This document shows positions 3,978-43,240 of a stretch of DNA of 64,000 bases, one piece after another; position 1 is the stretch's first letter; every line of letters begins with the position of its first letter. The notes beneath the pieces were generated by a model that was not told the origin of the DNA, ran no database searches, and worked only from the letters and a program-made list of their open reading frames with translations. Position numbers and translations under genes: made by a program. This stretch comes from Flavobacteriales bacterium (GTDB lineage: Bacteria; Bacteroidota; Bacteroidia; Flavobacteriales; Schleiferiaceae), in contig CP051243.1 of assembly GCA_017795025.1 (NCBI GenBank), positions 1,426,001 to 1,490,000 on the forward strand. The letters are read 5' to 3'.

Positions 3978-4014
3978 TGAATGGAATCAAAAAATTGTCA
4001 TTATTATTGGCTTG

Positions 4015-4022
4015 CAAAATTA
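4015..4022 (-). promoter_or_regulatory. Candidate -7 element upstream of nqrA
   Basis: On the minus strand this reads TAATTTTG, fitting the Bacteroidota -7 consensus TAnnTTTG, about 38 nt before the nqrA ATG. A TTTG stretch suitable as a -33 element lies further upstream, at a spacing (about 27 nt) longer than ideal. Assignment rests on consensus matching only. Confidence 0.4.
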
Positions 4023-4132
4023 AGACGAAGCTTGAGCCCGCCTAAAGCACAAACAATTTAGAATTCATCTAAATTGGCGGCAAATTTAAGGCTTAAGTCG
4101 CAATAATTCAGACCCAAACGCATTTTTTGAAT

Positions 4133-8155: not shown

Positions 8156-8157
8156 TC

Positions 8158-8988: not shown

Positions 8989-9116
8989 TAGTTTTTTAAT
9001 TGGGGGCAAAGTTGCTAAATTTTAGCTTCCTCAATGGCTCTAAGAGGTGGAAGAATTTTTTTGAAGAGCTCCGAGCTTATTTAGTATATTTAAGAAATTA
9101 ATAAGAAACTTAGGTT

Positions 9117-11315
9117 TTGGGAACGAACATTTCCTCGGCTCAAGAGCACTTGAAGCAGTTTTTTGGCTTCGATCAATTTAAAGGCAATCAAGAGGCCGTA
9201 ATTGAAAATGTATTAGCCGGTAACGACACTTTTGTAATCATGCCCACCGGGGGCGGTAAATCTTTATGTTACCAATTACCGGCCATTATGCAAGAAGGGA
9301 CCGCAGTAGTAGTGTCCCCATTAATTGCCTTGATGAAGAATCAGGTCGATAGCTTGCGGGGATTTGCGGAGGCAGATGGCATTGCCCATGTTTTAAACTC
9401 CTCCCTTAGCAAAAAGGATGTGGAAAGGGTAAAATCCGACATCCTTAGTGGAGTGACCAAATTGCTATACGTAGCTCCCGAATCCCTCACCAAAGAGGAC
9501 AATATCGAATTCTTGCAACAGGCGAAGGTTTCTTTCTTTGCCATTGATGAAGCCCACTGTATTTCGGAATGGGGTCATGACTTTAGACCCGAGTACCGCA
9601 ATTTGAGGCAGATCATCCGGAAAATTGGACGCAAGCCTATTATTGGCCTTACCGCTACCGCCACACCCAAGGTGCAAAGTGATATCCAAAAAAACTTGGG
9701 AATGGAAGATGCCCAAGTCTTTAAAGCTTCCTTTAACCGTCCTAACCTTTTTTACGAGGTACGTCCCAAAACCAAAAATGTAGATCGCGACATCATTCGC
9801 TTCATCAAAAAGAATGAAGGGAAAAGCGGCATTATTTACTGTCTTAGTCGTAAAAAGGTAGAAGAGCTGGCTCAAACCTTACAGGTAAATGGTCTTAAGG
9901 CCCTTCCTTATCATGCGGGTTTAGATGCTTCTTCGCGTAGTCGTCACCAAGACGCCTTCTTAATGGAGGAAGCGGATGTGATTGTAGCCACCATTGCCTT
10001 TGGGATGGGGATTGATAAGCCCGATGTACGCTTTGTGATTCACTACGATATGCCCAAGAGTTTAGAAAGCTATTACCAAGAAACTGGTAGAGCTGGCCGA
10101 GATGGTGGCGAGGGCCATTGCCTCGCTTTCTACTCTTACAAAGACGTAGAAAAACTCGAGAAATTCTTAAACGGCAAGCCCGTCTCGGAGCAGGAGATTG
10201 GCATGCAACTCCTCCAGGAGGTCATTGCTTACGCCGAAACCTCCATGAACCGTCGGAAATTTATCCTCCACTATTTCGGAGAATCTTTTGATGAAGAAAA
10301 CGGTCCAGGGGCTAAAAATGATGATAACAGTCAAAATCCCCGCAAACACTTCGATGCGCGGGAAGACCTTAGCATCGTATTAAAAACAGTCTTGGCCACC
10401 GGACAGCGATTTAAAGCGAAGTCGGTAGTAGACACCCTAACCGGGAAATTAAACTCCATCACCAAGCAGTATAAAGTGCAAGACTTAGAGGTCTTTAACG
10501 AAGGGGCCGATAAGGACCCCAAATACTGGATGTCGGTGATTCGCCAGGCCGTTGTGCAAGGCTTTCTCCGTAAGGATATTGAAAAATACGGAGTGCTTTT
10601 CCTAAAGGATAAAGGCAAGGCCTTTTTAGAGAAACCCGGTCCTTTTTTAATTGCTGAGGATCATGATTATGAAGAGGAAGCCGGACAAGAAGAAATAATC
10701 TCCGAACAAAAAGCGGGGGCGGCCTTCGACCCTAAGCTTTTTAATATGCTTAAGGACCTTACCCGCAAAGTGGCGAAGTCTAAAGGCTTACCGCCCTTTA
10801 CGGTATTTCAAGAGCCTTCCCTTAATGAAATGGCCCTACACTACCCTACCAGCCTCGACGAGTTGAAACAGATTTCGGGCGTTGGTGAAGGTAAGGCCCG
10901 CAAATTTGGCGCCCCTTTCCTCGACTTGATCAGCAAGTATGTAGAGGATAACAATATTGAGAAAGGCGATGGTCTCCTCGTAAAATCGGTGGTGAATAAG
11001 TCCGGCTTAAAGGTGTACATCATTCAAAGCACGGACCGTAAGTTATCATTAGAGGATATCGCTGCTGCCAAAGGGCTGAGCATGGAAAACCTCATTACCG
11101 AAATCGAGCATATCGTACACTCGGGGACCAAGGTGAACCTTTCTTATGTTTTGGAAGACTTGTTTGATGAAGATCAATTAGAGGAAGTACACGACTACTT
11201 TATGGAAGCCGATTCGGATGACTTGCAAGTAGCTTATGAAGAATTCGATGGCGATTATAGTGAAGAAGAACTGCGATTAATGCGCATTAAGTTCATGAGT
11301 GAAGTGGCGAACTGA
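9117..11315 (+). CDS. recQ: ATP-dependent DNA helicase RecQ
   Basis: 3'-5' DNA helicase of the RecF recombination/repair pathway. Visible in order: motif 0 (FGFDQFKGNQ), Walker A (MPTGGGKS), DEAH box (AIDEAHCISEWGHDF), TATATP, motif VI (QETGRAGRDG), the RQC winged-helix region, an HRDC domain (about residues 545-610) and a C-terminal helix-turn-helix extension of about 100 residues. Odd point: the zinc-binding cysteines of canonical RecQ are missing. The usual C-R-R after AETSM is N-R-R, and the usual CGNCDNC cluster is replaced by NGPGAKNDD. No ATG is available near the start, so a TTG start is inferred from where homologous sequence begins. Confidence 0.94.
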   Translation: MGTNISSAQEHLKQFFGFDQFKGNQEAVIENVLAGNDTFVIMPTGGGKSLCYQLPAIMQEGTAVVVSPLIALMKNQVDSLRGFAEADGIAHVLNSSLSKKDVERVKSDILSGVTKLLYVAPESLTKEDNIEFLQQAKVSFFAIDEAHCISEWGHDFRPEYRNLRQIIRKIGRKPIIGLTATATPKVQSDIQKNLGMEDAQVFKASFNRPNLFYEVRPKTKNVDRDIIRFIKKNEGKSGIIYCLSRKKVEELAQTLQVNGLKALPYHAGLDASSRSRHQDAFLMEEADVIVATIAFGMGIDKPDVRFVIHYDMPKSLESYYQETGRAGRDGGEGHCLAFYSYKDVEKLEKFLNGKPVSEQEIGMQLLQEVIAYAETSMNRRKFILHYFGESFDEENGPGAKNDDNSQNPRKHFDAREDLSIVLKTVLATGQRFKAKSVVDTLTGKLNSITKQYKVQDLEVFNEGADKDPKYWMSVIRQAVVQGFLRKDIEKYGVLFLKDKGKAFLEKPGPFLIAEDHDYEEEAGQEEIISEQKAGAAFDPKLFNMLKDLTRKVAKSKGLPPFTVFQEPSLNEMALHYPTSLDELKQISGVGEGKARKFGAPFLDLISKYVEDNNIEKGDGLLVKSVVNKSGLKVYIIQSTDRKLSLEDIAAAKGLSMENLITEIEHIVHSGTKVNLSYVLEDLFDEDQLEEVHDYFMEADSDDLQVAYEEFDGDYSEEELRLMRIKFMSEVAN

Positions 11316-30609: not shown

Positions 30610-31140
30610 ATGAAAGCATGGATTCTGGGTATAGTTCTTCTCCTTAGTGCTGCTGGACTGCAGGCACAACACTGTCCCTTCGACCATGCCCATATCTTTG
30701 TGTTAAAGGTGATGGATGCGGAGTACCAAAAACCCATCCGCAATTTGGAAGTTTACTTTGTGGATAGCCTTAATCAGGTGGTGCTGGGCGACTTTTGGCG
30801 ACAGGGAAAGTGGCAAAAGGATACCATTTTTATGTGGCCTAATCCCGATAGTAGCCATCACAGTGGCATCGTTGATAATAACCACCCCTTAAATCCTTGG
30901 CAAATAAACTTTTGGTTTGCCGAGCGCAACTACGTGTATGTTGGCGGCTATCGTTTGCCGGGGGCTAAGATTGTGGTGGTGGATAAGGATGGTTTAGCTG
31001 AAGGTGGCCAATACCCCACCACTGTTTTTGAGATTGATCGGTCCGCGACCTATCCGCTTTGCACCGGCCAAAGTAATTGGAACTGGTCGACTGAGCCCAG
31101 CTTTGTTCCCGAATTTAAGCCTTGGGTGGTATGGCTTTAA
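30610..31140 (+). CDS. Secreted protein of unknown function
   Basis: 176 residues with a signal peptide ending near GLQAQ (residue 20). The mature start is histidine/cysteine rich (HCPFDHAHIF), followed by a beta-rich segment resembling a carboxypeptidase-regulatory/Ig-like fold (PIRNLEVYFVDSLNQVVLG). Only two cysteines, in positions that could form a disulfide (CPFD and PLCTG). Not recognised further. 51 nt downstream of the MORN-like gene on the same strand. Confidence 0.65.
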   Translation: MKAWILGIVLLLSAAGLQAQHCPFDHAHIFVLKVMDAEYQKPIRNLEVYFVDSLNQVVLGDFWRQGKWQKDTIFMWPNPDSSHHSGIVDNNHPLNPWQINFWFAERNYVYVGGYRLPGAKIVVVDKDGLAEGGQYPTTVFEIDRSATYPLCTGQSNWNWSTEPSFVPEFKPWVVWL

Positions 31141-31179
31141 AAGCGCTGAATTTCCTATCTTCAAAAACAAAAATCGCTT

Positions 31180-31329
31180 ATGATACTGGGAGTAGCCGAA
31201 TGGCTGAGTTTTAAATTAGGCTGGAATGTGACCAATATTCGCATTGCCTTTATTGTCGCTTTTTTGGTTTTTGGCACCGGCTTAGGGCTCTATTTAATCT
31301 TATGGATCGTGAAGCATTTTTCGCACTGA
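31180..31329 (+). CDS. Small PspC-domain membrane protein
   Basis: A 49-residue ORF (ATG 31180, TGA 31327-31329), easily missed for its size. It follows the PspC domain pattern: a short amphipathic start (GVAEWLSFKLGW), an N-x2-IR-IAF segment, and one membrane helix ending in the hallmark LYLILWIV. PspC-type proteins sense or dampen envelope stress and can act as toxin/anti-sigma partners; no psp genes are adjacent. It lacks the usual basic N-terminus with GG-LAEY, so it may be a shortened form. Confidence 0.7.
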   Translation: MILGVAEWLSFKLGWNVTNIRIAFIVAFLVFGTGLGLYLILWIVKHFSH

Positions 31330-31382
31330 ACTTCAGGTACGCGAGACAGAAGGACCTTCTAATAAACTTCTATTTTAACTAA

Positions 31383-31724
31383 ATGCCTTACGATCAACAT
31401 CTTGCCGAGCGCATTCAAACTATTTTAAGTCGACGCGGCATTCCCTATGAGGAAAAGAAAATGATGGGTGGTTTATGCTTTATGGTTGACCAAAAAATGC
31501 TGGCAGGTGTCGTGCATGATCAGCTTATGGCTCGAGTGGGCCCGCAGCAATACGAGGAAGCTTTACAGCGGAACGGCGCCAAAGAGATGAACTTCACGGG
31601 CAGGAGCATGAAAGGTTTTGTTTTTGTGGAAGCGGAAGGCATCGATTTAGAAGAAGATTTAGAGGCATGGCTGGAGGCCTGCTTGGTTTTCAATCCGGAG
31701 GCGAAGCGCAGCGCGAAAAAGTGA
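31383..31724 (+). CDS. TfoX N-terminal-domain protein
   Basis: 113-residue protein matching the TfoX/Sxy N-terminal domain: MMGGLCFMVDQKMLAGV, followed by LMARVGPQQYEEAL and GRSMKGFVFVE. In gamma-proteobacteria TfoX/Sxy is a competence regulator, but stand-alone N-domain proteins like this are common in Bacteroidota and of unknown role. It lacks the C-terminal helix-hairpin-helix domain. It is the last intact core gene before the repeat-rich accessory region. Confidence 0.88.
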   Translation: MPYDQHLAERIQTILSRRGIPYEEKKMMGGLCFMVDQKMLAGVVHDQLMARVGPQQYEEALQRNGAKEMNFTGRSMKGFVFVEAEGIDLEEDLEAWLEACLVFNPEAKRSAKK

Positions 31725-31760
31725 GTTTTTTTTTAATCTTCTAAATGAAACCCCATTGGT

Positions 31761-31856
31761 GCGGAGACCATCCCCTTCGTGCGACAAAGAGTTGGATTTC
31801 GAGGTAGGTCGGAAGACAGTCCCTTCATTGCATTACGGGCTGTAATACGGGGTAGG
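31761..31856. repeat. Small hairpin repeat (copy 1, degenerate)
   Basis: Member of a dispersed family with the layout CCCCTTCG-CGAAGGGG hairpin, TCCGAC-GTCGGA hairpin, then ACGGGGTAG. Here the first stem is degraded (CCCCTTCG then CAAAGAG) and the second partly so (TTTCGAG/GTCGGAA), and about 35 nt are inserted before the final ACGGGGTAG. Lies just left of duplicated unit A. Confidence 0.6.
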
Positions 31857-31980
31857 GTAAGCCTGCGGCAGAACCTTGAACAGTCACGATGCTCCTTGTT
31901 AGAACTGAGACCGGTCGCGATGCTCCCTTTTAGACTATATATTCTTATAGTACTATTATTTTTCTTTCAAAGGATAATCC

Positions 31981-32040
31981 TCTGTTGCGGAGACCGTCCC
32001 CTTCGTGTACTTCGGGGTGTAAAACGGGGTAGTTTTAACT
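31981..32040. repeat. Small hairpin repeat (copy 2)
   Basis: Same family as 31761 and 39621: begins TTGCGGAGACCGTCCCCTTCG and ends AACGGGGTAGTTTTAACT. The middle is shortened and the TCCGAC hairpin is missing relative to the copy in unit B, showing that this part of the unit is free to vary. Confidence 0.65.
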
Positions 32041-32146
32041 AGCTGCATTACCTAATTTGTTAATGGCCTTTTTTAGTTTGATGCTCGTTTTTGGTGACCT
32101 AATTCTAGACTCCTCTAAAACTTTTTCCTTTCATTTTTTCTTGATC

Positions 32147-32262
32147 AACCGAGAGCTTTGCTCGAGCTCACGAACTCAATTGAAAATAGATAAGGCGTTC
32201 GTAACCGAGAGCTTTGCTCGAGCTCACGGATTCCATTGAAAAAAAATTTAAGCGACATCCGT
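32147..32262. repeat. Two tandem 56-60 bp hairpin units in copy A
   Basis: Each unit starts AACCGAGAGCTTTGCTCGAG, contains the palindrome GCTCGAGC, and ends with a 6-bp inverted repeat: ACGAAC (32170-32175)/GTTCGT (32197-32202) in the first and ACGGAT (32226-32231)/ATCCGT (32257-32262) in the second. The second unit differs from the first at two stem positions and both changes are matched on the opposite arm. The loop between arms is free (AT-rich, 21 versus 25 nt). Confidence 0.8.
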
Positions 32263-32330
32263 AAAAACGAAACATCCGCCGCCACTAGAGCTATGGCAGA
32301 CCGGAAAATCAATTGAGCTGGAAGGCAATT

Positions 32331-32386
32331 ACTCTAAGGCTTGACGCCTTAGAGTACCACAGAATCTCAGGCCAGACCAGCCTGAG
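32331..32386. other. Paired strong hairpins in copy A
   Basis: Hairpin 1: ACTCTAAGGC (32331-32340), loop TTGAC, GCCTTAGAGT (32346-32355), a perfect 10-bp stem. Hairpin 2: CTCAGGC (32366-32372), 7-nt loop, GCCTGAG (32380-32386). Identical in copy B. They are separated by 10 nt and are not followed by a T run on the lipoprotein-sense strand, so they are not simple terminators, though they lie downstream of the lipoprotein gene. Confidence 0.75.
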
Positions 32387-32692
32387 GAAATACCTGAATT
32401 AAATTCTTTTATCTCGACCCATTTAGAGTTAGGTTCTAAAAACTGCCTTTCGATCTGTTATTGCTGCCCAGCTCAAGGGGCCTCCGAACTTCACATTCCG
32501 GCTTAGTAAAAATTTCCCCATGGTTTTCTCAATAAAACATTGTCCCTGATTCCAAAACTCACCTATGGAAGCACCCGGGCTTTCCCCAGTGATCGTGAGG
32601 ACTCCGCCGTGGGAGGACAATTGCGTCCGCCTCGGGCGGAAGAAGCATGGAGCGATTAGGGCCGAACAGTTTTGCCGATTGAAGTGAGGCAA

Positions 32693-32815
32693 CCGTGCCC
32701 GCCGCCGCTAATACTATGGCAAATAAAACCCGCCATAACTGGCTGTGGCAGGCGGGAAATCACCTAGGGAAAGGCCTAGGGTTTTCCGCCTGCCAAAGCT
32801 TTAGCGGCGGACAGG
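32693..32815. repeat. Compound palindrome inserted only in copy A
   Basis: Nested inverted repeats: outer CCGCCGCTAA (32702-32711) with TTAGCGGCGG (32801-32810); middle GGCAGGCGG (32747-32755) with CCGCCTGCC (32786-32794); inner CCTAGG repeats around AAAGG. The outer and middle arms are in segments absent from copy B, while the inner CCTAGG part is shared, so the palindrome was built around a pre-existing small hairpin. Resembles REP/BIME-type elements. Confidence 0.7.
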
Positions 32816-33089
32816 TTGGATACTTTTTACAAACGTATATTTTATTTATAAGGTGTTTGTGAGCTCGGCCAAGGCCTTCGGTTTGGCAATGAAAAAAGTA
32901 TCGTAAAAACTCAGCTAGTCGTCTACTTCCATTTTTTCGTCTACCCTTCCTAGGCCGTATACCCCCTCACATAATATCAGGTTGAAAAGATTGATTCCTA
33001 ATTTCTAGTGCCTCTATCGTGTATCGTCCAAATACCAGTCAACCAATCTACTAATACTCCGACCTGCCAATGGCTTTAAAGTTTTCAAA

Positions 33090-33569
33090 TCAATCCAGCA
33101 CATTACCTTCTCCATCCTTTAACCTAAACTTCGTCATATCTTCAAAGCTGGGAATGAAATTAGAATCAAGATCATAAATGCCAGCTGGTTTGATATACAT
33201 AAAGACTCCTAGAAAATTATTTGGAACCTCATGCGGATGAACAAGTTTCGAAATCTCACTTATTACGCCCGTTTCTTTGGATATTTTAAATCTGGAACCA
33301 TCACAATCAACCACAATATAGAAGGTGCTATCTTCAAACAAATAACTTCTGCATTCACCTAAGCTATTTCTTAAAGAGACCTTATCGATAATTGCATTTG
33401 CCGAGTCTTTAGTACATAGTACCCTATTATGGGATTCCCATTGCCAAAAAGAATGACTCGTCATTAATTCTATTTTATTCAGCGAAGAGCTTTCTGTAAA
33501 GTTGCAGCTTGTGATTACACATAAAATGATGAGAATAATTTTTATCGGGATTAACTTCTTTAGTATCAT
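33090..33569 (-). CDS. Unrecognised lipoprotein, copy A
   Basis: 159-residue predicted lipoprotein with a basic start, hydrophobic run and lipobox ending in cysteine (VITSC, C about residue 22). The mature part contains four further cysteines (for example VLCTKD, GECRSY and VDCDGS) and is rich in beta-strand-like sequence (STFYIVVDCDGSRFKIS). I do not recognise the family. It differs from the copy at 40565-41044 at only about six residues and both frames are open, while the noncoding parts of the duplicated units have gained or lost whole segments, suggesting selection on the protein. No other gene lies in the unit. Confidence 0.75.
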   Translation of the reverse strand: MILKKLIPIKIILIILCVITSCNFTESSSLNKIELMTSHSFWQWESHNRVLCTKDSANAIIDKVSLRNSLGECRSYLFEDSTFYIVVDCDGSRFKISKETGVISEISKLVHPHEVPNNFLGVFMYIKPAGIYDLDSNFIPSFEDMTKFRLKDGEGNVLD

Positions 33570-33753
33570 AAACCGGTTTTAGGCAAATCAGCGCTGCTCC
33601 TGGAGACCACTTCAATTTATCAATTCAGGCGCTTGTCACGTCCACTACCCTACACTTATCAAATTTTGTCGTGCCCGGCCTCTCTAATTTTTGTTTGACA
33701 AGGCAACTATAGAAAGTCTAAATTAACACTGTCCTAAAAATGGGAAGCCTTCA

Positions 33754-34223
33754 TAAAGTTGGGGTATTTGTTTTCACATGCCTCTTACCCTAACTCCACA
33801 TTTGATAGGAGAGGAGCTTCGGGTGACATTTTACCCTCTGATTTAAGATATCTTAGCACTAGTTATGGAGCAATTAATTTTGGTCTTTCATATGGTTATT
33901 GACTGAGATTTAGAAAAGGTTATCTAATACCAAGTGTATCATTAGGTGTTGGGTTTGTTGAAAGAATGAAGGTCAGGTATCAGGCTATAAGCAATGGAGG
34001 TTTTTTTGAATCTAATAATACGGCTGCTCCCTCCACACTAACTAGGAATCCCTTAATATTTGACTTAGCCTGCTACTATCAATCGAAACGACGACGTTCG
34101 GGAAAAGGGTTGATGGTTAATTATAAAGTGGGCCCTTATTTAGGAGTGATTTCAAATGGTGAGTTTGATAAGATTTTCTTTTTGAATGGGGGAGTATCTT
34201 TTCAGTTTCCCTTTTCATTTTAG
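33754..34223 (+). pseudogene. Remnant of outer membrane beta-barrel-like gene
   Basis: Reading plus-strand frame back from the stop at 34221-34223, open sequence extends to the edge of duplicated unit A, interrupted by one TGA (33900-33902). The translation (YLFSHASYPNSTFDRRGASG, then DLRYLSTSYGAINFGLSYGY, TGA, LRFRKGYLIPSVSLGVGF and ending GGVSFQFPFSF) has the alternating aromatic pattern and terminal phenylalanine of outer membrane beta-barrels. The 5' half is missing, cut exactly where unit A begins. An ATG at 33966 gives an 85-residue ORF but it is most likely only the tail. Confidence 0.65.
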
Positions 34224-34292
34224 AATGGCAGTGGATTATTAGGCTAATCACTTAAAGACTGCAGTATTGATGATTAGCAGAATGCTAGTCAC

Positions 34293-35795
34293 CTATTTTT
34301 TTAGCAAAATTTTAGCGAGGGGTGAAGTGTTGGAGAGTGTGATAACGAAGTAGTAGAGCCCAGTCGGGAGGTCTTCCACAGGTAAGGAAGAAGTATTAGG
34401 ATACTTGAACTCTTTGATTAACTGTCCATTTGTAGTATAAATAGAAATGCCTTCTAGATTTGAAGGATCATCAAGGTCAATAAACACTTGGTTTTGAAAT
34501 GGATTAGGATAAAGGTTAATTGGATTCAGAAGTAAATCTAGAGATTTCACTTTCAAAGGGCTTATTCCATCTTTATTAAAGTTAACATAGCCGATGGCGG
34601 CACCAAACCCTCTTCTAGATGACCGGAAAGCCACGGTGGCCGTGGAATCTGGTCTTAGAACAAAGCTTGATTGGCCTCTACCTTGTGCTAGACCGCTTCT
34701 TGAATTGAACGCTCGTAAAAAGAATGCCTCTGTAGTATAAATCAGATCGCCCGCAGCATTATAAAACTGGAAACTATTACCACCTTGTAATTCAGGTCGA
34801 CCATTATGCATGCCGTCCCTAATGATATCCGAATCAATCATATAGGAACCGTCAAATGCACGTACAAGTCTTACTCCAGGTTCGGTCCAATTGCTATCCA
34901 CATCCTTAGTCGCCGGAATAATCAGGTCCTCACTAATAATGGTGTCCGAATCGAAATTAAACATACGAATGGAAGCATTCACAGTTGAATCTCCACTTTG
35001 ATGATTTAGGATGTAGGAGGTATATAAAGGTTGCTCAAAGCCTCTTTGCAAGCCTATGTGCCCGAAACGGGGGAATTCAAAGTCATCTGTTATACAAGCA
35101 CATGAATTTTCGTATTTAGCATGAACTAAATTAAAATCGCCATTCGGCTTTGGTACAAAACCCATGAAATATTGAATCGAATCATTTCCTGCGATTCTGG
35201 AAATTTCAAACACTGAATCGCGCTGACCAAAAGAACCAATCAAATTGCTCATCGAATCGGCGCTAAAGGTTTTTAAAACCGCCCCAGTATTCTTGTCTAG
35301 AAAAACATAGTCTCCATTAGTGCTGGATCGACAAAAAATGTCTGAGTAAGTGCCCGCATAGTCACTAACGCAGTCCATCAAGCTCAAGTCTTCCTTGGAC
35401 CACTGCACATTTTTCGTTTTTAAATTCACGCATTCGATAATCTCCTTCTGCTGCCCCCTAGTATAAAAAGTGTGAATCGCAAGATGGTCCAAAGTGAAAA
35501 GGAATTGGGCATCAATATCACGATCCTTGTTTTCGATAGTTGGTGTTAAGTAATAATCCAGAAGTTGTCCATCCTTCCCATGTATCACCACATAATCCTT
35601 CACTGTGCTGGCCGCCCCGTACTCGTAATTTACCATGGCATAAATGGAATCCTGATTAACTTTAAATCCGATAAAGCCAATTCGATCAATCAGACTTGGG
35701 GTATTGGGGATATCGGGAAGAATTGTATACCAGCCTTGGGCAAAAAGCCCAAAGCTGGATAATGAGAATATCATTATTAAGGAGACTAACCTCAT
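34293..35795 (-). CDS. T9SS type A sorting-domain surface protein
   Basis: 500-residue exported protein with a signal peptide (to about residue 19, LFAQG) and a C-terminal type A T9SS sorting domain (about 420-500: LYPNPFQNQVFIDL, ISIYTTNGQLIKEF, LPTGLYYFVITL). The central 400 residues contain repeated blades of beta sequence (for example DGQLLDYYLT, NTGAVLKTFS) suggesting a beta-propeller. Substrate unknown. Overlaps the upstream 940-residue gene by 4 nt (ATGA), so the two are cotranscribed. By eye its DNA is AT-richer than the core genes. Confidence 0.85.
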   Translation of the reverse strand: MRLVSLIMIFSLSSFGLFAQGWYTILPDIPNTPSLIDRIGFIGFKVNQDSIYAMVNYEYGAASTVKDYVVIHGKDGQLLDYYLTPTIENKDRDIDAQFLFTLDHLAIHTFYTRGQQKEIIECVNLKTKNVQWSKEDLSLMDCVSDYAGTYSDIFCRSSTNGDYVFLDKNTGAVLKTFSADSMSNLIGSFGQRDSVFEISRIAGNDSIQYFMGFVPKPNGDFNLVHAKYENSCACITDDFEFPRFGHIGLQRGFEQPLYTSYILNHQSGDSTVNASIRMFNFDSDTIISEDLIIPATKDVDSNWTEPGVRLVRAFDGSYMIDSDIIRDGMHNGRPELQGGNSFQFYNAAGDLIYTTEAFFLRAFNSRSGLAQGRGQSSFVLRPDSTATVAFRSSRRGFGAAIGYVNFNKDGISPLKVKSLDLLLNPINLYPNPFQNQVFIDLDDPSNLEGISIYTTNGQLIKEFKYPNTSSLPVEDLPTGLYYFVITLSNTSPLAKILLKK

Positions 35796-38614
35796 GATTT
35801 GATTAGTTTAGAAGCTTGTTCATTAACCTTGACAATATAAGTGCCTGATGATAAGTGCCCTATATTGATATTGACTTGATTTGTGTTCGCCTTCTTAGTA
35901 TATACAATTCTTCCATTTAAATCAAATACAGTGATTGTAGGATGTTCACCTTTGTTAAAGAGCTCACTAAAATTCACCTGGAAGCTTTCAGACGCAGGAT
36001 TGGGGAAAATCGAAAACTGATTTTGATTGCTTTCAACTTCTAGACCGATAATATGTGATCCGGTTCCGTTGCAATTGGACAATCCAAAATTAGTGAAAGT
36101 AGATTGGTGATTTACTTGATTATCCTCTAAACAATTCAGGATGTACCAACCAAATCCTTTTATCTCGGTGTTGGTAAAACATGTTGGGCAGTTTGGTCTT
36201 GAAGATCCCCAAAGAGCCCCATAGGTACTCCACATCTGATCAGTGAATTGACCTTCTGCATAGGCAGGGGTATGAGTGCCTCCAAGCCAATTTCCAAAAA
36301 AGCCTTGATCATAATAGCAACCGTTTGTCATTTCAGCGCTGAATAGGGGAATCAGATTTAATACCTCACCAGAGACTGTGGCCAGTGAACTGTAATTTTT
36401 TGCAAATTCATTAGTGTCTCCTAAATTATATGAAATTACTGGACCAGTGCCAGGATTGAAGTAATTAGCAAGTAAAACGGCGTCTAAATCAGCTTCAGAT
36501 GTTTTTAAAAGTTTCTCAGCCATATTATCCCGAAATTGTGGTTCAGGAATTGTTGTACCAGCGGAAGCAGTGCTGATACTCTCATTGTAGCTGGAATAAA
36601 ATGTTGTAACTGCAGGTGTATTTGAGGTGAGATAGTAGATGTAGTCCATTGTGGCCTTAAGATTGGCGTTCCTGTTTCTTTCCGCTTTAAGCTGTTTTAA
36701 ATACGTTATCCTTGTTTCCCATAATTTGAAATTATATGCTGAAACTAATTCTTGTTTTATAGCATTGGATAGCGTCACAGTCTGAGGTGGATTAACAACC
36801 TCTGAATAAAAATAATTCCCAATATTGGGGTCGAACGTCGGGAAACCAGGGTATAGGGCCTGTACCCTTGGTGAATTTCGAAATGCATTTTCTACAGCCA
36901 CTGACTCAAGGAGATGTTCTCGGCCTGGTAAATTCCAAATTTCCCATTCCAAAACGGCCATTGTGATTTTCCCAGCATGATGAGCATTAAAATTGGTTAA
37001 TCCATTAAAGACATTATTAATGGACCCAATGGCATTTGTGACAAAATCTTGATTCCCCCCTATTGCTATTCCAAACACAATACCATTAGGGTCTTTATGA
37101 GCTTCTAGTAACATATGTACCAAGTGGTTCATTGCCTCTAAGACTGGCTTATCTGCATGAGGATAACTGGCTATTGATGCTTGATCGTATTTGTGATAAC
37201 CTGTTTGAGCCCATTGATTAAACAGTCTGTCCACTTCATATAGAATTACATAATCTATGTTGTATTTATGGGCCATGTCGATGATGGCGGTCTTATTTGT
37301 TAAGAGACTTTTTGTCCCAATTAGATTCCCTTTATCAGCCACGCTAGTTGAAAAATTGAATAACCCATCCACATATGCAACCCTTGGGTAGTCACAGTTT
37401 GCACCGGTTGGTCCTTGTGGGTGAGACAATGTACCGCTAATACTAGCATTCCCAAAACGTTCCTCAAAACCTAAAGTCATTCCAGGAAAATAAACCTTCG
37501 GATCTGTTTTTAGGATTCTCATATGATGTGAGGTTTCATCATTTTCGCTACCCATTGTTTCAGTTAATGTAACCGTAGTGGCAGTTGAGTTTAGATGAAT
37601 AATGTAATTATCCCATCCGCCTTCACCTTGATTATTTGTAATTCCGCCAGCTACAAAACCGTCTGCCGATTCACCGATATCATAAAGAAGTTCCGTTCCT
37701 GAAATTCCATGCCTTTTAGATGAAGCGATGGAAAGGTTAGAATCGATTTTCACGACAAACGCATCAGTGTCTCCTTGAGTTATGGAGTACCCAGCTGCAA
37801 AAACATCCTTGCTGTCAGTGTATGTAAATCCGAAGAGATATTTGTTCTCTAATGAAGTATGTGCGCTTGCAGAAAGATTGGTGGCATTATACATATCAAA
37901 ACGCAGTGAGATTGGAATAATGTCAGTAACGTCATTACAAATTGTATAATAGTACCCATTTTCATATTCTATGATTTCATAGGAGGTTGTTCCTTCTTCA
38001 GATTGCCCATAATAGGCATTAGATCGGAGTAGTTGATTTCCAGCAGCAGACAGTTTAATAACCATCGAGGCAGGCAAGCCACTCCCATCTAAAATATTAG
38101 CTAGGACTGCAACATTGCCATCAGAGTCAATGATGATATCCTTTGGAGCAATTCCACCTTCTTCAATACCTGTTTTATATGTCCATTGTATAACACCGTC
38201 TTCATCTAGACCTAATACTATTAGGGTATCGTTAACAGAGACGTTTTCATCCATTGTAGACTCCTGTGTTTGCCTTATAGCCAGATAAATGAACTCACCA
38301 TCAGTGGCTGCACCTTCGCCAATTTCGGCGTAGTCAATTTGACCATAGGATTGATGAAGTAGTTCTTCTGCACGGTTTGATATAAACCAAAGGGATGCAT
38401 CGATTGAGGTTGTCTCCTCTTCAAATTCAAGTTCAATCCATCCAGCCATTAGATGGTTGTTATTAAAGTCGATAATATCCCTGCCTTCTTCTAGTAATGT
38501 AGATCCATAGACCTGTTCAACAAACTGGCCTTTTTCAATTGCAAATAAGTCTTGAGCAAAAATGTTAGAAAACGACAATAGCATTGCTACTGTAGCGAAA
38601 CAGATAGATTTCAT
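35792..38614 (-). CDS. Large T9SS type A sorting-domain surface protein
   Basis: 940 residues from ATG 38614 (signal peptide to about residue 20, IFAQD); an upstream frame extension lacks any export signal at its start. The N-terminal 350 residues look like a beta-propeller (repeated GEFIYLAIRQ, DAFVVKIDSNLSI, VAGGITNNQGEG), the centre (about 400-800) is an alpha/beta region of unknown type (for example NIDYVILYEVDRLFNQWAQT, GIVFGIAIGG, ITMAVLEWEIWNLPGREH), and the C-terminus is a T9SS sorting domain (FSIFPNPASESFQVNF). The centre could be a TIM-barrel-like hydrolase but I see no catalytic signature. Operon with the following 500-residue T9SS protein. Confidence 0.82.
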   Translation of the reverse strand: MKSICFATVAMLLSFSNIFAQDLFAIEKGQFVEQVYGSTLLEEGRDIIDFNNNHLMAGWIELEFEEETTSIDASLWFISNRAEELLHQSYGQIDYAEIGEGAATDGEFIYLAIRQTQESTMDENVSVNDTLIVLGLDEDGVIQWTYKTGIEEGGIAPKDIIIDSDGNVAVLANILDGSGLPASMVIKLSAAGNQLLRSNAYYGQSEEGTTSYEIIEYENGYYYTICNDVTDIIPISLRFDMYNATNLSASAHTSLENKYLFGFTYTDSKDVFAAGYSITQGDTDAFVVKIDSNLSIASSKRHGISGTELLYDIGESADGFVAGGITNNQGEGGWDNYIIHLNSTATTVTLTETMGSENDETSHHMRILKTDPKVYFPGMTLGFEERFGNASISGTLSHPQGPTGANCDYPRVAYVDGLFNFSTSVADKGNLIGTKSLLTNKTAIIDMAHKYNIDYVILYEVDRLFNQWAQTGYHKYDQASIASYPHADKPVLEAMNHLVHMLLEAHKDPNGIVFGIAIGGNQDFVTNAIGSINNVFNGLTNFNAHHAGKITMAVLEWEIWNLPGREHLLESVAVENAFRNSPRVQALYPGFPTFDPNIGNYFYSEVVNPPQTVTLSNAIKQELVSAYNFKLWETRITYLKQLKAERNRNANLKATMDYIYYLTSNTPAVTTFYSSYNESISTASAGTTIPEPQFRDNMAEKLLKTSEADLDAVLLANYFNPGTGPVISYNLGDTNEFAKNYSSLATVSGEVLNLIPLFSAEMTNGCYYDQGFFGNWLGGTHTPAYAEGQFTDQMWSTYGALWGSSRPNCPTCFTNTEIKGFGWYILNCLEDNQVNHQSTFTNFGLSNCNGTGSHIIGLEVESNQNQFSIFPNPASESFQVNFSELFNKGEHPTITVFDLNGRIVYTKKANTNQVNINIGHLSSGTYIVKVNEQASKLIKS

Positions 38615-38745
38615 TTGGTTGCGAATTAGATTAAGTAAGATTTCCAAGTTATGAAAATTATTGAACTTCAAGTTTTGTAAAGTCCTAACATTGGTGCTCG
38701 ATTCCAATATTACCCCAATCTACTATTATATGCCAAAGTCTTGTT

Positions 38746-38809
38746 CGGCGGCTTGACTTACCTGCCAGAGCCTCGTGCGGCGGCAAGGCTTACCTGCTAG
38801 AGCCTCGTC
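38746..38809. repeat. Two 32-bp tandem repeats
   Basis: Units 38746-38777 and 38778-38809, sharing CGGCGGC, CTTACCTGC and AGAGCCTCGT, followed by a partial third start (CGACGCC). They lie between the large T9SS gene and the toxin-antitoxin operon, upstream of the former. Flanking 38615-38745 and 38810-38886 hold nothing else I can support. Confidence 0.65.
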
Positions 38810-38886
38810 CGACGCCAGAACTTTGCATAGAAGCAAATACAAAACAACTTTTTCGTGCATCAAACATCGAAAAAGAAAACAGCAAA

Positions 38887-39192
38887 CTACTTTCTCATTT
38901 TACTCGGATGCCGTCGTGTATCAAAAATTTGCAGCAAACGAATTTCCTCTTTGCTCTGTACTTTATAAATAATCTTATAATTCCTTACCACCATCCTACG
39001 AAAGGGTTCACCTAAATATTCATCGACTTGATACTGTTCGGTATGGACTATCGACTTGCTGTGACCTACTATCTCTCGCACTACCCTGATGGCTGTTTGG
39101 CTTGATTCTGTATAATCCTTGAGCTGCTGGTAAATAATTTTTAGATCTTCTTTTGCCGCATCGGACCAAACTATCTTTACTTTTTGGTCCAA
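38887..39192 (-). CDS. RelE/ParE family toxin
   Basis: 101-residue protein with the RelE/ParE fold: N-terminal VKIVWSDAAKEDLKIIYQQLKDYT, central EPFRRMVVRNYKIIYKV (strand with the conserved R and Y) and C-terminal IRLLQIFDTRRHPSKM. ParE members poison gyrase and RelE members cut ribosome-bound mRNA; the sequence does not distinguish with certainty, but the DTRRHP ending is frequent in ParE-like toxins. It lies 4 nt downstream of its antitoxin gene. Confidence 0.88.
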   Translation of the reverse strand: MDQKVKIVWSDAAKEDLKIIYQQLKDYTESSQTAIRVVREIVGHSKSIVHTEQYQVDEYLGEPFRRMVVRNYKIIYKVQSKEEIRLLQIFDTRRHPSKMRK

Positions 39193-39196
39193 TGGA

Positions 39197-39448
39197 TTAC
39201 CAGTTTTCTATCTCCTTTTCTAAGTCTTCGGTGGTGGTAAAAGCCCCCTCGTCGATAGCGCGATCGGCGGCTTTAATTCGTTTCAGGTATTCCTCCTTGC
39301 TCAAAGGCTCTCCTTTAACAGAATAGGCTACAACGGATTCTTCCGTATTAGTATAACTTTCAAAAACCGCAGTCATGATTCGAAGCACCCGCTCATCTGC
39401 TTTGTTAATGTATTGATGTAATTTTTCCCTTAATTCCAAACTTCCCAT
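39197..39448 (-). CDS. Type II antitoxin of the RelE/ParE pair
   Basis: 83-residue partner of the toxin. N-terminal helical segment (LELREKLHQYINKADERVLRIMTAVF), then the strand with VAYSVKGEPLSKEEYLKRI, and an acidic tail (TTTEDLEKEIENW) typical of the toxin-binding part. This architecture is common in Bacteroidota antitoxins paired with RelE/ParE toxins. It is first in the operon and probably autoregulates; no operator palindrome was identified in the short upstream region. Confidence 0.87.
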   Translation of the reverse strand: MGSLELREKLHQYINKADERVLRIMTAVFESYTNTEESVVAYSVKGEPLSKEEYLKRIKAADRAIDEGAFTTTEDLEKEIENW

Positions 39449-39620
39449 AAATCCAAATATTAGCCTTCTTTCAAAGGTAAGGCATTTGTAATTCTTGCAG
39501 TCATGGGGGTAGAGCCTAAGGCAGTAGTGAGATATAAGACTTGAGACCGGTCGCGGGGCTCCCTTTTAGACTATATCATTCTTTAGTACTACCATTTTTT
39601 TTCAATGCATAATCGTCTGT

Positions 39621-39692
39621 TGCGGAGCCAATCCCCTTCGCGGGGCGAAGGGGTGGATTCCGACGTAGGTCGGAAGACGGGATAGTTTTAAC
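39621..39692. repeat. Small hairpin repeat (copy 3, intact)
   Basis: Best-preserved copy in the duplicated units: CCCCTTCG (39633-39640), loop CGGGG, CGAAGGGG (39646-39653); TTCCGAC (39658-39664), loop GTAG, GTCGGAA (39669-39675); then ACGGGATAGTTTTAACT. The first base pair of the second stem is T-A here and C-G in the copy at 49046-49063, so the pairing is kept. Confidence 0.75.
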
Positions 39693-39783
39693 TTGTCTGA
39701 TCCGAAAAGCAAGTTGTTCTTTCGAATTTGGTGACCTGATTTCTGACTGCTCAACAACTCTTTCCTTTCATTTTTTCTTGATA

Positions 39784-39895
39784 AACCGAGAGCTTTGCTC
39801 GAGCTCACGAATTCAATTAAAAATAGATAGGGCGTTCGTAACCGAGGGCTCTGCTCGAGCTCACGAACTCAATTGAAAATAGATAAGGCGTTCGT
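39784..39895. repeat. Two tandem 56-bp hairpin units in copy B
   Basis: Units 39784-39839 and 39840-39895. Arms are ACGAAT (39807-39812)/GTTCGT (39834-39839), which pairs with one T-G wobble, and ACGAAC (39863-39868)/GTTCGT (39890-39895), perfect. Both contain GCTCGAGC. The second unit has GAGGGCTCTG where others have GAGAGCTTTG. Confidence 0.8.
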
Positions 39896-39963
39896 AAAAA
39901 CGAAACATCCGCCGCCGCTAGAGCTATGGCGGACCGGAAAATCAATTGAGCTGGAAGGCAATT

Positions 39964-40019
39964 ACTCTAAGGCTTGACGCCTTAGAGTACCACAGAATCT
40001 CAGGCCAGACCAGCCTGAG
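39964..40019. other. Paired strong hairpins in copy B
   Basis: ACTCTAAGGC (39964-39973)/GCCTTAGAGT (39979-39988), and CTCAGGC (39999-40005)/GCCTGAG (40013-40019). Identical to the pair in copy A although surrounding bases differ. Confidence 0.75.
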
Positions 40020-40564
40020 GAAATACCTGAATTAAATTCTTTTATCTCGACCCATTAAGAGTTAGGTTCTAGAAACTGCCTTTCGATCTGTTATTGCTGC
40101 CCAGCTCAAGGGGCTTCCGAACTTCACATTCCGGCTTAGTAAAAATTTCCCCATAGTTTTCTCACTAAAACATTGTTCCTGATTCCAAAACTCACCTATG
40201 GAAGTATTCGGGCTTTCCCCAGTGATCGTGAGGACCTGAGCGCAATTGCGTCCGCCTCGGGCGGAAGAAGCATGGAGCGATTAGGGCCGAACAGTTTTGC
40301 CGATTGAAGTGAGGCAAAAATCACCTAGGGAAAGGCCTAGCCTTTTTGGATACTTTTTTGGCAATGAAAAAAGTATCGTAAAAACTTAGCTAGTCGTCTA
40401 CTTCCATTTTTTCGTCTACCCTTCCTAGGCCGTATACCCCCTCACATAATATAAGGTTGAAAAGATTGATTTCTAATTTCTAGTGCCTCTATTGTGTATC
40501 GTCCAAATACCAGTCAACCAATCTACTAATACTCCGAACTGCCAATGGCTTTAAAATTTTCAAA

Positions 40565-41044
40565 TCAATCCAGCACATTCCCTTCTCCATCCTTTAGCCT
40601 AAACTTCGTCATATCTTCAAAGCTGGGAATGAAATTAGAATCAAGATCATAAATGCCAGCTGGTTTGATATACATAAAGACTCCTAGATAATTTTTTGGA
40701 ACCTCATGCGGGTGAACAAGTTTCGAAATCTCACTTATCACGCCCGTTTCTTTGGATATTTTAAATCTGGAACCATCACAATCAACCACAATATAGAAGG
40801 TGCTTTCTTCAAACAAATAACTTCTGCATTCACCTAAGCTATTTCTTAAAGAGACCTTATCGATAATTGCATTTGCCGAGTCTTTAGTACATAGTACCCT
40901 ATTATGGGATTCCCATTGCCAAAAAGAATGACTCGGCATTAATTCTATTTTATTCAGCGAAGAGCTTTCTGTAAAGTTGCAGCATGTGATTACACATAAA
41001 ATGATGAGAATAATTTTTATCGGGATTAACTTCTTTAGTATCAT
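40565..41044 (-). CDS. Unrecognised lipoprotein, copy B
   Basis: 159 residues, almost identical to the product of 33090-33569. Visible differences include ITCC for ITSC just before the lipobox cysteine, P for T near residue 36, E for D in LFEESTFY, and KNYLG for NNFLG; none breaks the frame. The additional cysteine next to the lipobox leaves the acylation site unclear but still plausible. Located 154 nt from the boundary of unit B, as in copy A. Confidence 0.75.
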   Translation of the reverse strand: MILKKLIPIKIILIILCVITCCNFTESSSLNKIELMPSHSFWQWESHNRVLCTKDSANAIIDKVSLRNSLGECRSYLFEESTFYIVVDCDGSRFKISKETGVISEISKLVHPHEVPKNYLGVFMYIKPAGIYDLDSNFIPSFEDMTKFRLKDGEGNVLD

Positions 41045-41197
41045 AAACTGGTTTTAGGTAAATCAGCGCTGCTCCTGGAGACCACTTCAACTTATCAATT
41101 CAGGTTCTTGTCACGTCCACTACCCTACACTCATCAAATTTTGTCGTGCCCGGCCTCTCTAACTTTTGTTTGACAAGGCAACTATAGAAAGTCTAAA

Positions 41198-41707
41198 TTA
41201 ACACTGTCCTAAAAATGGTAAGCCTTCAGTATGTCTAAAAAGAAAACCAGATACCACAAAAGTTGAATCCGTATCGAACTCAAGATCCCTGACTTCTGGC
41301 AAAGCTCCTTGAAACTCTAAATGCTTTCGCGTGTGCAGAGTGTCTAAGCTGTTATCAAAACGTGTAAATCGAACAAAAACCGAATCAGCCCTTATGTAGT
41401 CCGTTTGGGCATATAAAAAGCCGTTCCCAATTGACTTGAGACATTTAAAGCAAGAAGAGATTCTTAAAACAGAATCTGATGACTCGTAGTAGTCAAAGGA
41501 CCTATGAAAGATTTTATTCCCCAAGGTATCAAACAACCCGACCTGCAGCAGTCCTAAGGAGTCTCTATCCTCATCGGCAACAACAAAACCATCTTCCACA
41601 AATATGAAGGCCGGTCTATTCACGCCTCCAAAAGTTGAATCCGTTAGGCTGAATCTTTGGGCCTGTGCGGAAAGGGATAAAATACCTATGAAAAAGACTA
41701 ATCGCAT
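41198..41707 (-). pseudogene. T9SS-family surface protein truncated by unit B
   Basis: The 169-residue ORF has a signal peptide (MRLVFFIGILSLSAQAQ) very like that of the 500-residue T9SS protein at 34293-35795 and beta-propeller-like sequence (GLLQVGLFDTLGNKIFHRSF), then ends eleven residues after crossing into unit B (final residues GLPFLGQC are encoded by the repeat). The 3' two-thirds, including any sorting domain, is missing. The 5' end is intact with normal start, so the gene was cut by whatever placed unit B, or by a later rearrangement through it. Confidence 0.75.
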
Positions 41708-41752
41708 ATTTAAGTTTAAAAAAGGGGGCGTTGTACGCCCCCTTTAAAATTA

Positions 41753-41968
41753 TTATGGTTGTACGTTTAATTTCTGTTTAAATATAGTAGTCTGTTTACT
41801 AATAACCTCAACAATATAAGTGCCTGGCAACCACGATTCAACATTTAATTGAGCTGTATTTATGGAGGCATCAGGAATAAGCTTGTCATATACGATAGCA
41901 CCGGCGAGGTTTACTACTCTAATGGAAATTTCTTCTTCCCACAAGCCTTTGAAAAATAGCGCTCTTGC
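41753..41968 (-). pseudogene. T9SS sorting-domain remnant
   Basis: Minus-strand open frame of about 72 codons with no plausible start, beginning after a TAG at 41969-41971. It encodes most of a type A T9SS C-terminal domain (LFFKGLWEEEISIRVVNLAG, then AQLNVESWLPGTYIVEVISK, ending KQKLNVQP). This is the tail of a larger surface protein whose body has been lost. It sits 45 nt upstream of the truncated gene at 41198-41707 on the same strand, resembling the tandem T9SS pair at 34293-38614 in degraded form. Confidence 0.7.
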
Positions 41969-42069
41969 CTAACAACAATTACCTCTTACCGGTCTATTCT
42001 TAAACAAGCTGCTGTACCTTATTTCTTTTCTCCCGCTTGCATATAGTTCATCCTCCGCTAAGAACTGCA

Positions 42070-42108
42070 AAAACCTCAAGTGCTTTTAAAAAAACCCCTT
42101 GAGGTTTT
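42070..42108. terminator. Inverted repeat, possible terminator
   Basis: AAAACCTCAAG (42070-42080) pairs with CTTGAGGTTTT (42098-42108) across a 17-nt loop; both strands have T-rich flanks. A third CTCTTGAGCTTTTT follows nearby. Lies in the otherwise featureless stretch 41969-42292, between the T9SS remnant and the MDR oxidoreductase gene, where I see no gene on either strand. Confidence 0.5.
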
Positions 42109-42292
42109 GACTAAAAGTTCAGCAGCTTTTTTAAAAATCCTCTTGAGCTTTTTGGGAAGGGTAAAGGTCAAGGGAGCACCTAATACCTGAAGCTCCAATC
42201 TTTTTATAGGCAAGGGGCAAAAAAAGACCGCTGCCCGAGCAACTATCAGAGGAGCCAACAGTGTCAAAAACCTATAGAAGCAAATCAAAACC

Positions 42293-43240
42293 ATGAAAGC
42301 CATTACCAAATACCGCTACGGAGGTCCGGAAGTCTTAAACTACGAGTCGGTGCCCCATCCCCTTCCCCAAGGAAATGAAGTGCTGGTTAAAGTAATGGCA
42401 AACTCGGCCAATCCTGCCGACTGGCACATTATGCGCGGGAAGCCCTATTTCGCTCGTCTGCAATTTGGACTCTCTAAACCGACACAGGCCATCTTGGGTT
42501 CCGACTTTGCTGGAATCGTCGAAGCCATAGGTCCAGAAGTGCAAAACCTTAAACCGGGCGATCGGGTATTTGGCGAGAATATGCAAGGGGCTTTTGCTGA
42601 ATACTGCCTAAGTAAGGAAAGTGTAATGGCCCGAATGCCCCAGGAAAGCTCCTTTGAAGAAATGGCTGGCCTACCCATCGCAGGACTTACCGCCTACCAA
42701 GGTTTATTGGAGCATGGGAAATTAAAATCTGGAGAAAGGGTACTTATTAATGGCGCCTCTGGCGGAGTAGGTCATTTTGCCCTTCAGATAGCCAAAGCTT
42801 ATGGGGCTAGAGTAAGCGCGGTTTGCTCTTCAAAAAACAAAGACTTTGTAAAAAACTTAGGCGCCGAAACGGTTTTGGCTTATGATGATCCCGCATGGGC
42901 TAGTTATCAAGAGCAGCACGATTTAGTAGTAGACTGTCATGGTAATTTAAAGCATGCCGATTTAAAACGCTTGGGTCGTCGAGCCGTGCTGATTGGTTTT
43001 ACGGGTATGGCTCCCATGCTTCGTCTTTTAGCTTGCAATATGTTTAGTAAATATCCCTTAGCCCAGTTTACCGCTCAAGCGCGAAAAGAAGATTTAGAAA
43101 TGCTGGCGCAATTGGTAGAGGAAGGGCAAGTGCAAACCCATATCGACCGCAGCTATGCCGCTCCCGAAATTCCTCTGGCCATAGCCTACATCGAAAAAAT
43201 GCGCACCCGCGGAAAGGTGGTCATGCGCTGGGAACATTAA
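42293..43240 (+). CDS. Zinc-independent MDR oxidoreductase (quinone reductase-like)
   Basis: 315-residue NAD(P)H-dependent medium-chain oxidoreductase. N-terminal GroES-like domain (LVKVMANSANPADWHIMRG), then a Rossmann domain with NGASGGVGHFALQIAK (nucleotide-binding). Cysteine/histidine ligands of the catalytic and structural zincs of alcohol dehydrogenases are absent, placing it in the quinone oxidoreductase/enoyl reductase branch. Substrate unknown. Marks return to core sequence after the accessory region. Confidence 0.9.
   Translation: MKAITKYRYGGPEVLNYESVPHPLPQGNEVLVKVMANSANPADWHIMRGKPYFARLQFGLSKPTQAILGSDFAGIVEAIGPEVQNLKPGDRVFGENMQGAFAEYCLSKESVMARMPQESSFEEMAGLPIAGLTAYQGLLEHGKLKSGERVLINGASGGVGHFALQIAKAYGARVSAVCSSKNKDFVKNLGAETVLAYDDPAWASYQEQHDLVVDCHGNLKHADLKRLGRRAVLIGFTGMAPMLRLLACNMFSKYPLAQFTAQARKEDLEMLAQLVEEGQVQTHIDRSYAAPEIPLAIAYIEKMRTRGKVVMRWEH

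Follow-up and report, generated by a model that had tools for sequence, protein, structure and literature searches.

The present work concerns a 64,000-nucleotide window of a Flavobacteriales bacterium of the family Schleiferiaceae (contig CP051243.1, positions 1,426,001 to 1,490,000), in which two direct copies of a segment, designated units A and B, each combine an intact gene for a putative lipoprotein with a long noncoding half rich in hairpins. This arrangement comprises two findings: the lipoprotein half reflects the duplication of a small gene, in itself an ordinary event, whereas the noncoding half belongs to a less ordinary family of composite intergenic repeats, made of nested hairpins, whose copies appear to trade tracts with one another and are able to flank variable genes. 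From the comparison of sequences, we consider it probable (about 0.7) that these composite repeats recombine with and convert one another, that at the margins of accessory genes they provide portable homology, and that the lipoprotein segment was duplicated within an accessory block.

The dispersed nature of the noncoding half was evident from searches of the own genome (G000), a single contig of 3.44 Mb, in which the DNA of unit A gave 125 matches and the lipoprotein 2. An earlier note on this DNA had described one unit of 1.7-1.85 kb in two copies; given these counts, the noncoding half is not special to A and B, and the supposed unit is instead a repeat element plus an adjacent duplicated gene. 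Around the unit A matches, 22 stretches of G000 were fetched, and 21 short modules were mapped in them and in the window (23 stretches); since the stretches were picked for similarity to unit A, the resulting counts describe one repeat family and not all repeats of the genome. Clusters with at least three modules of any kind numbered 43, and those with at least three core modules, i.e., without the caps (Z) and the RP hairpin, numbered 33. The latter lay on both strands (17 on the forward and 16 on the reverse), with a mean length of 967 bp, a longest copy of 2170 bp and a total of 31.9 kb. Within them, 422 of 424 core modules occupied the cluster's own strand, and the module order comprised 341 forward against 36 backward steps, compared with a mean of 188 and a maximum of 209 in 1000 shuffles. 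The element, of approximately 0.3-2.2 kb, thus contains some 20 modules in fixed order, several of them hairpins nested in other hairpins, and some clusters, not all, display tandem CCAATC-type caps, whose orientation is inverted on the left side and direct on the right side. Its copies are dispersed, collinear, structured and mosaic and, as in composites of the BOX type, the element is present in many copies with ordered modules of variable content. No paper on these repeats was found among the titles and abstract openings that the literature search covered.

In unit A the element spans 31760-33055 on the forward strand, with modules A2 A1 A1 A2 A3 A4 B1 S1 S1 B2 RP B5 C1 C2 RP C3 H1 D1 H2 D2 E1 F1 Z; in unit B (39543-40530, forward) the order is the same, minus the second RP, H1 and H2. 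As the modules end at about 33055 and 40530, respectively, the lipoprotein gene lies outside the element, past its right end, at 33090-33569 in A and 40565-41044 in B. Both are open reading frames (ORFs) of 159 aa on the minus strand, the B product being 97% identical to that of A, in which a lipobox-like ITSC was recognized by eye. The presence of two direct copies, each with an intact gene, is therefore borne out, and nothing ties the lipoprotein to the repeat. Outside three segments found in A only, the recently duplicated tract is approximately 97% identical between 32263-33753 and 39896-41228 (both forward), as determined by alignment and window comparison. In blocks of 100 columns of a global alignment, 94-100% of ungapped columns were identical over 32285-33753 of A and 39918-41228 of B, and identity in the four blocks to the left of that tract was only 39/71 to 84/95. 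The right edge is common to both units, as the earlier note had stated, with unrelated sequences beyond it. That the two copies arose as an artefact of assembly is highly improbable: repeats of this kind do break assemblies, and several matches to the S1 module in related genomes fall within ~120 bases of a contig start, but A and B diverge by 3%, differ by the three segments, have different flanks on both sides, and belong to a genome assembled as one contig.

The differences between A and B trace a mosaic. The A-only segments, defined by alignment, are a hairpin segment of 64 bp (32693-32756, forward), the hairpin segment H1 of 31 bp (32785-32815, forward), and H2, a reversed S1-family module of 55 bp (32828-32882, reverse) that pairs with 32203-32250 in a long inverted repeat. 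Each of the three is able to fold. The units do differ by whole segments, and these are hairpin modules; five further differences, shorter or unfolded, are located further left or at 32605. When A was compared in windows of 80 bp with B and with the other copies in the 22 fetched stretches, other copies were nearer to A than B in five of six windows of 31903-32282, the sixth being level, and B was the nearest in all five windows of 32263-32582. Unit starts at 31903 and 39540 had been proposed earlier and are not retained, high identity beginning at about 32263 and 39896. Across 32563-32942 another copy again surpassed B in matched bases in 7/7 windows: two loci (L026 and L029) matched A at 80/80, 77/80, 78/80 and 79/80, the best copy over the 64-bp segment (L018) at 70/76, and at the left rim of this tract the other copy reached 76 of a gapped 92 against 65/80 for B; positions 32623-32692, where A, B and L026 agree, are uninformative. 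From 32923 onward B is again nearer to A, and in the gene no other copy exists. A is a mosaic of B-like tracts and tracts closest to other copies, a pattern characteristic of ectopic gene conversion or recombination; the donor could also be a copy outside those compared here. H1 and H2 occur together in 9 clusters, H1 alone in 2 and H2 alone in none, and both are missing from 5 clusters that hold D2; a single exchanged tract of ~0.3 kb would explain this co-occurrence as well as all three A-only segments. The earlier suggestion of a mobile or gene-conversion unit is thus upheld with regard to gene conversion of the noncoding half; exact mobile termini are suggested at the right only, by three junctions, and no left terminus or target-site duplication was found for units A and B.

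The right edge is marked by a motif, CTATAGAAAGTCTAAATTARCACTGTCCTAAAAATGG, located by sequence search at 33707-33743 in A and 41182-41218 in B (both forward). It is identical in the two units and shared at 36 of 37 bases with a genome of another genus (G015), the remaining position (R) being A or G. Three different sequences follow it. In A, 33754-34223 (forward) is a probable decayed coding remnant, one frame with a stop followed by an 85-aa ORF, with no Pfam family; in B, the 5' part of a cut gene (41235-41707, minus strand) retains ~158 codons and is 85% identical in DNA, up to the edge, to an intact homologue in the genus relative G003, whose 504-aa product carries a type IX secretion system (T9SS) sorting domain; in G015, the motif abuts a glycosyltransferase-like ORF and itself encodes the final residues of that ORF. 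These observations suggest that the right edge is the best lead for a true terminus, though with three junctions only. Another possible explanation, which is compatible with recombination among repeats and not exclusive of it, is that the lipoprotein segment is the true mobile unit, with an enzyme that recognizes the right-edge sequence and inserts the segment into genes, the hairpin repeat serving as the other end. The edge shared by A, B and G015, next to 30 leftward bases that differ in G015, and the three unrelated sequences beyond it would fit such a unit. We nevertheless regard it as unlikely, since there are only three junctions, the motif had no more than 2 carriers among 88 genomes of the family and 2 among 395 of the order (the own genome counted in both) and matched no viral contig or plasmid, G015 has no lipoprotein match, its motif begins at base 31 of a contig and the truncation of its ORF is a matter of judgement, no target-site duplication was seen, and no transposase or integrase appeared among the ORFs scanned in the block. 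The latter agrees with the earlier note and holds for 8 ORFs scanned within 31.4-41.7 kb plus the 85-aa ORF at 33966; two 87-aa ORFs inside the repeats were outside the scan. An insertion-sequence end was likewise considered for this edge and rejected on the same distribution, the own genome holding, besides the two known copies, one match with 3 mismatches.

Units A and B are part of an accessory block. Compared with the six other genomes of the genus (G001-G006), a block of 10.5 kb is missing between the flanking genes in 6/6; the corresponding gap in the window measures 10,568 bp and accommodates, besides units A and B and some remnants, genes for two T9SS-sorted proteins and for a ParE toxin and its partner. 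At the block-free sites, a TfoX-type gene lies 54 and 63 bp from an oxidoreductase gene in G002 and G003, and 39 bp from a gene of 118 aa in G005 and G001. No TfoX match was obtained in the stretch fetched from G004 or from G006, where the outer genes adjoin. According to the family scan, the cargo between A and B, all on the minus strand, consists of two T9SS sorting-domain proteins of 500 and 971 aa (34293-38707), and a ParE-type toxin of 101 aa with an 83-aa partner without family (38887-39448). The 500-aa gene has 82% DNA identity to a gene at another locus of G005. The cargo homologues are more alike (82% and 85%) than the aligned flanking segments, which are only 68-79% identical in DNA, and this suggests a recent acquisition of the cargo.

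A border position of the elements was also observed at one locus common to the closely related species G005 and G001, which show 91-94% DNA identity outside it: elements are present at both borders with different genes between, namely ParE, ParD and further proteins, some of which seem by eye to carry signal peptides, in one case, and an esterase and another protein in the other. Elsewhere in G000, the genes between elements include ParE (L019), ORF6N and DUF1016 proteins, and two large paralogues (L018). Ordinary genes, such as those for a hydrolase and an aldose epimerase, are also found there, as are several without family. The L018 paralogues (709.5-728 kb of G000; positions 3825-5963 and 7807-9519 of the stretch) are 63% identical over 372 aa, and each lies near an element and has small ORFs after it; a match to Ntox23, below threshold, was obtained for the second and none for the first, and the pair is possibly a duplicated polymorphic-toxin cassette. 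At L021, repeat-element sequence separates two paralogues (71-2098, of 675 aa, and 3326-5344, of 672 aa) that share 71% identity. A small protein that adjoins the repeat in G000 (L016, 2633-2926) is 71% conserved in G003 (L073, 7215-7511).

Under the explanation by recombination among repeats, the right part of one element and the neighbouring lipoprotein gene would have been duplicated within the accessory block, with a left break within the repeat, where one would be expected had the repeat provided the homology, and a right break at the shared edge. Later, the element of either A or B would have exchanged the internal tract of ~0.3 kb with a copy elsewhere, giving rise to the apparently missing segments. 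The agent that first spread the hairpin modules would not be a resident enzyme of the Y1 or REP-associated tyrosine transposase (RAYT) type, as discussed below. Several observations weigh against this explanation. Since no repeat of this family is present at the right break, plain homologous recombination fails to explain it. The G005 stretch with the 82% identical T9SS gene shows no such repeat, and no element was matched in the stretch of G003 that contains the intact gene of 504 aa; these element-free homologues of the cargo imply that the repeats could be passengers, and speak against the elements as a constant carrier. The border position was recorded at loci with elements only, in stretches chosen by their match to unit A. 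Moreover, the DNA of unit B, which matches 8 of 59 genomes (own included), matches only 5 of the 7 genomes of the genus, not G004 or G006. Conversion was deduced from patterns of identity, with no donor and recipient caught; and in the CTTGAT box, a structure of the element considered below, the downstream partner in A and B is ATCAAT, one base off ATCAAG.

The modules themselves carry traces of conserved structure, most clearly S1, whose copies of about 56 bp (54-60 bp) form two hairpins, with a consensus that begins with ACCG and ends with CGTA. S1 occurs in tandem, as in A (32148-32203 and 32204-32263, forward) and B (39785-39896, forward), and in both orientations. Pairing was counted in 56 distinct copies, drawn from five of the genus genomes, some ends being extended by 1-6 bases past the limits given by nhmmer so that the stems were complete: 95.2% of cells were paired against 79.6% in shuffles, and 8 of 10 pairs had changed on both sides, including 6/6 of helix 2, where 99.4% of cells were paired. 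Helix 1 is looser (88.8% paired, 17 of 56 copies without the outer pair), and further pair types were no more numerous than in shuffles (276/500). A covariance model built from 51 copies detected S1 in at least 12 of 296 genomes, comprising all seven of the genus, among them G004 and G006, neither of which gave a training copy, and five further family genomes, the latter mostly with weak matches; since 19 candidates were scored per genome, match counts are lower bounds, and G000 and G005 hold 40 of at least 75. By eye, S1 slots show only 1-2 ambiguous bases inside A/T runs as a possible duplication. In another genome (L145 of G019, ~1382-1554), S1-like modules alternate with repeated TTGACACT / ATGATCTTTGACACT, forming another tandem composite.

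A box that reads TTTCATTTTTTCTTGATAAAAAACGAAACAAAAAATCAAG when empty encloses many of the S1 modules. Its first half in A, a stem arm followed by CTTGAT, is at 32128-32145 (forward). The box pattern was found in 10 of 395 genomes of the phylum, own included, and its reversed control in none. The stem arms pair in 178/198 cells (18 of 21 box rows), compared with a mean of 140.5 and a maximum of 161 in 5000 shuffles; the pattern largely predetermines pairs 1-6, and related genomes contribute several of the rows, but pairs 7-11, outside the search pattern, were paired in 73/90 cells against a shuffled maximum of 61. One row, from G004, pairs poorly. As CTTGAT and ATCAAG were both required by the search, the pattern hits carry no evidence on their mutual pairing. 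We propose the CTTGAT box as a candidate structured motif of Bacteroidota with a covarying stem. A second box with a different stem, ctcttcttttgg / ccaaaagaag, is present in one of the stretches (L102 of G183), and the pattern also occurs on four IMG/VR viral contigs (L155-L158). In open-access full texts, the scope of that search (subscription literature being outside it), the box letters were found only in papers unrelated by title.

This conservation of structure raises the question of whether the repeat is instead a selected regulatory or RNA element (a structured RNA, a terminator or an intergenic insulator) kept for its function, with mobility being incidental. Besides the compensatory changes in S1 and the paired arms of the box, positions 32100-33060 fold better than 20/20 shuffles on both strands (z -5.8 and -5.2), helped by the long inverted repeat between S1 and H2 (48-nt arms, 71% complementary). 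Conversely, copies differ by whole modules, S1 is found in both orientations, which a single-transcript function does not need, and the structure could equally be demanded by a DNA mechanism. Rfam gave no family above its gathering score in 31000-42500 (the top match scored 30.2 bits where 56 was required, and within the element Hrs1 scored 27.5 where 56.4 was required). Promoter-like sites in 31600-34400 numbered 9, with 5.1 expected (standard deviation 2.1); a terminator role was discarded, as 3 terminator-like sites were found in the same interval for 2.8 expected. Overall, a conserved regulatory function as the reason for the repeat seems doubtful to us.

A bolder and rather improbable proposal is that S1 could be a new minimal mobile hairpin, without a transposase, that lodges inside hairpins, with the CTTGAT box as a structured landing site throughout Bacteroidota, where the loop CTTGAT can pair with the downstream ATCAAG as an H-type pseudoknot or a two-state DNA hairpin, and that nested rounds of such insertion might have built kilobase-long elements. 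If so, these would now serve the genus as borders when accessory genes are swapped, for instance those for lipoproteins, for other surface proteins and for toxin-antitoxin pairs. The stricter notion that S1 always resides in a hairpin found no support: the flanks of 24 distinct insertion sites averaged -7.65 kcal/mol against -6.98 for permuted flanks (standard deviation 0.67), an insignificant complementarity (796 of 5000 permutations as low or lower), and clear single cases of S1 within a hairpin were L132 (-20.0 kcal/mol) and L131 (-14.7 kcal/mol). Still less plausible, and in our judgement very unlikely, is that S1 and the related hairpins are transposons of the repetitive extragenic palindromic (REP) type, non-autonomous and moved by a RAYT or other Y1 transposase. 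Small hairpin modules in many copies, in tandem and in both orientations, would suit such elements, which could be fossils of a lost enzyme; however, not one match to the Y1 transposase family PF01797 was obtained in G000 or G005, the very genomes with most S1 matches, and a resident RAYT/Y1 enzyme is thereby rejected for the own genome. The family is present in 25 of 59 genomes searched, own included, with one match in G001 and three in G006, and 5 of 14 control genomes were positive.

With respect to the lipoprotein, the earlier note's statement that it belongs to no recognised family stands for Pfam (0 families for both copies), NCBIfam (E 0.084 for A, far under the cut-off, and none for B) and PHROGs (best E 0.069 for A), and gives way to the extent that distant relatives were found in other genomes. 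Matches were obtained in 6 of 395 genomes of the order, own included, and 2 of the 5 others carry stop codons. The three stop-free relatives are 24-30% identical over the alignment, with 15 invariant columns, among them I..DC.G and LG.F. In one of these genomes (L121, G059:C219, ORF ~1485-2277, minus strand), a lipoprotein-like domain is fused to MlaD (MCE; E 1.2e-7, above the cut-off), from which a role related to the envelope or to lipids is a fair guess. The predicted structure was uninformative (mean pLDDT 35.7, the predicted local distance difference test), and no relative was found among solved structures (best E 0.68). A phage origin of the gene part was rejected, the lipoprotein having no phage match. 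Among 37 candidate stretches a single relative was detected, a weak match on a contig of a Moorena metagenome-assembled genome (L031, 6001-6105; 42% over residues 15-50).

Composite intergenic repeats are often regarded as inert parasites. The family described here has a readable module grammar, measurable exchange, covarying structures that cross genera, and a border position at one locus at least, features that provide a testable link between the conversion of repeats and the turnover of accessory genes. Integron gene cassettes likewise place accessory genes, including toxin-antitoxin pairs, between repeated structured DNA; in contrast to them, the present elements reach 2.2 kb and occur on either strand, and no integrase was found among the block ORFs scanned, a scan that included no search aimed at attC or integrases. 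REP sequences, as summarized in PMC3733652, are palindromes of 20-40 bp with a GTAG or CGTC tag. The elements resemble REP and the bacterial interspersed mosaic elements (BIME) in their small intergenic palindromes, often close together and in opposite orientation, and, going by that summary, differ in that S1 has ~56 bp and two hairpins, no Y1 transposase match exists in the genome, and long elements follow a fixed module order. The BrickBuilt miniature inverted-repeat transposable element (MITE) of Porphyromonas gingivalis is outlined in PMC4596501 as intergenic, in 19 copies, with tandem units, a leader and a tail, and small inverted-repeat ends. Set side by side by description, both are multi-copy intergenic repeats of a Bacteroidota host, but the outlined BrickBuilt core is a 23-bp minisatellite inside a MITE and ours is a series of different hairpin modules. 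BOX elements are modular, being composed of boxA, boxB and boxC. In Streptococcus pneumoniae they are summarized as dispersed, with extensive secondary structure, nearly confined to close relatives, and are called parasitic (PMC3049150). The present family is alike by description in its dispersed, structured repeats nearly confined to close relatives; relative to that summary, it stands apart in that some 20 modules follow a single order, elements reach 2.2 kb, hairpins are embedded within other hairpins, several copies bear tandem caps in inverted orientation at their two ends, and the copies appear to exchange tracts in a mosaic fashion.

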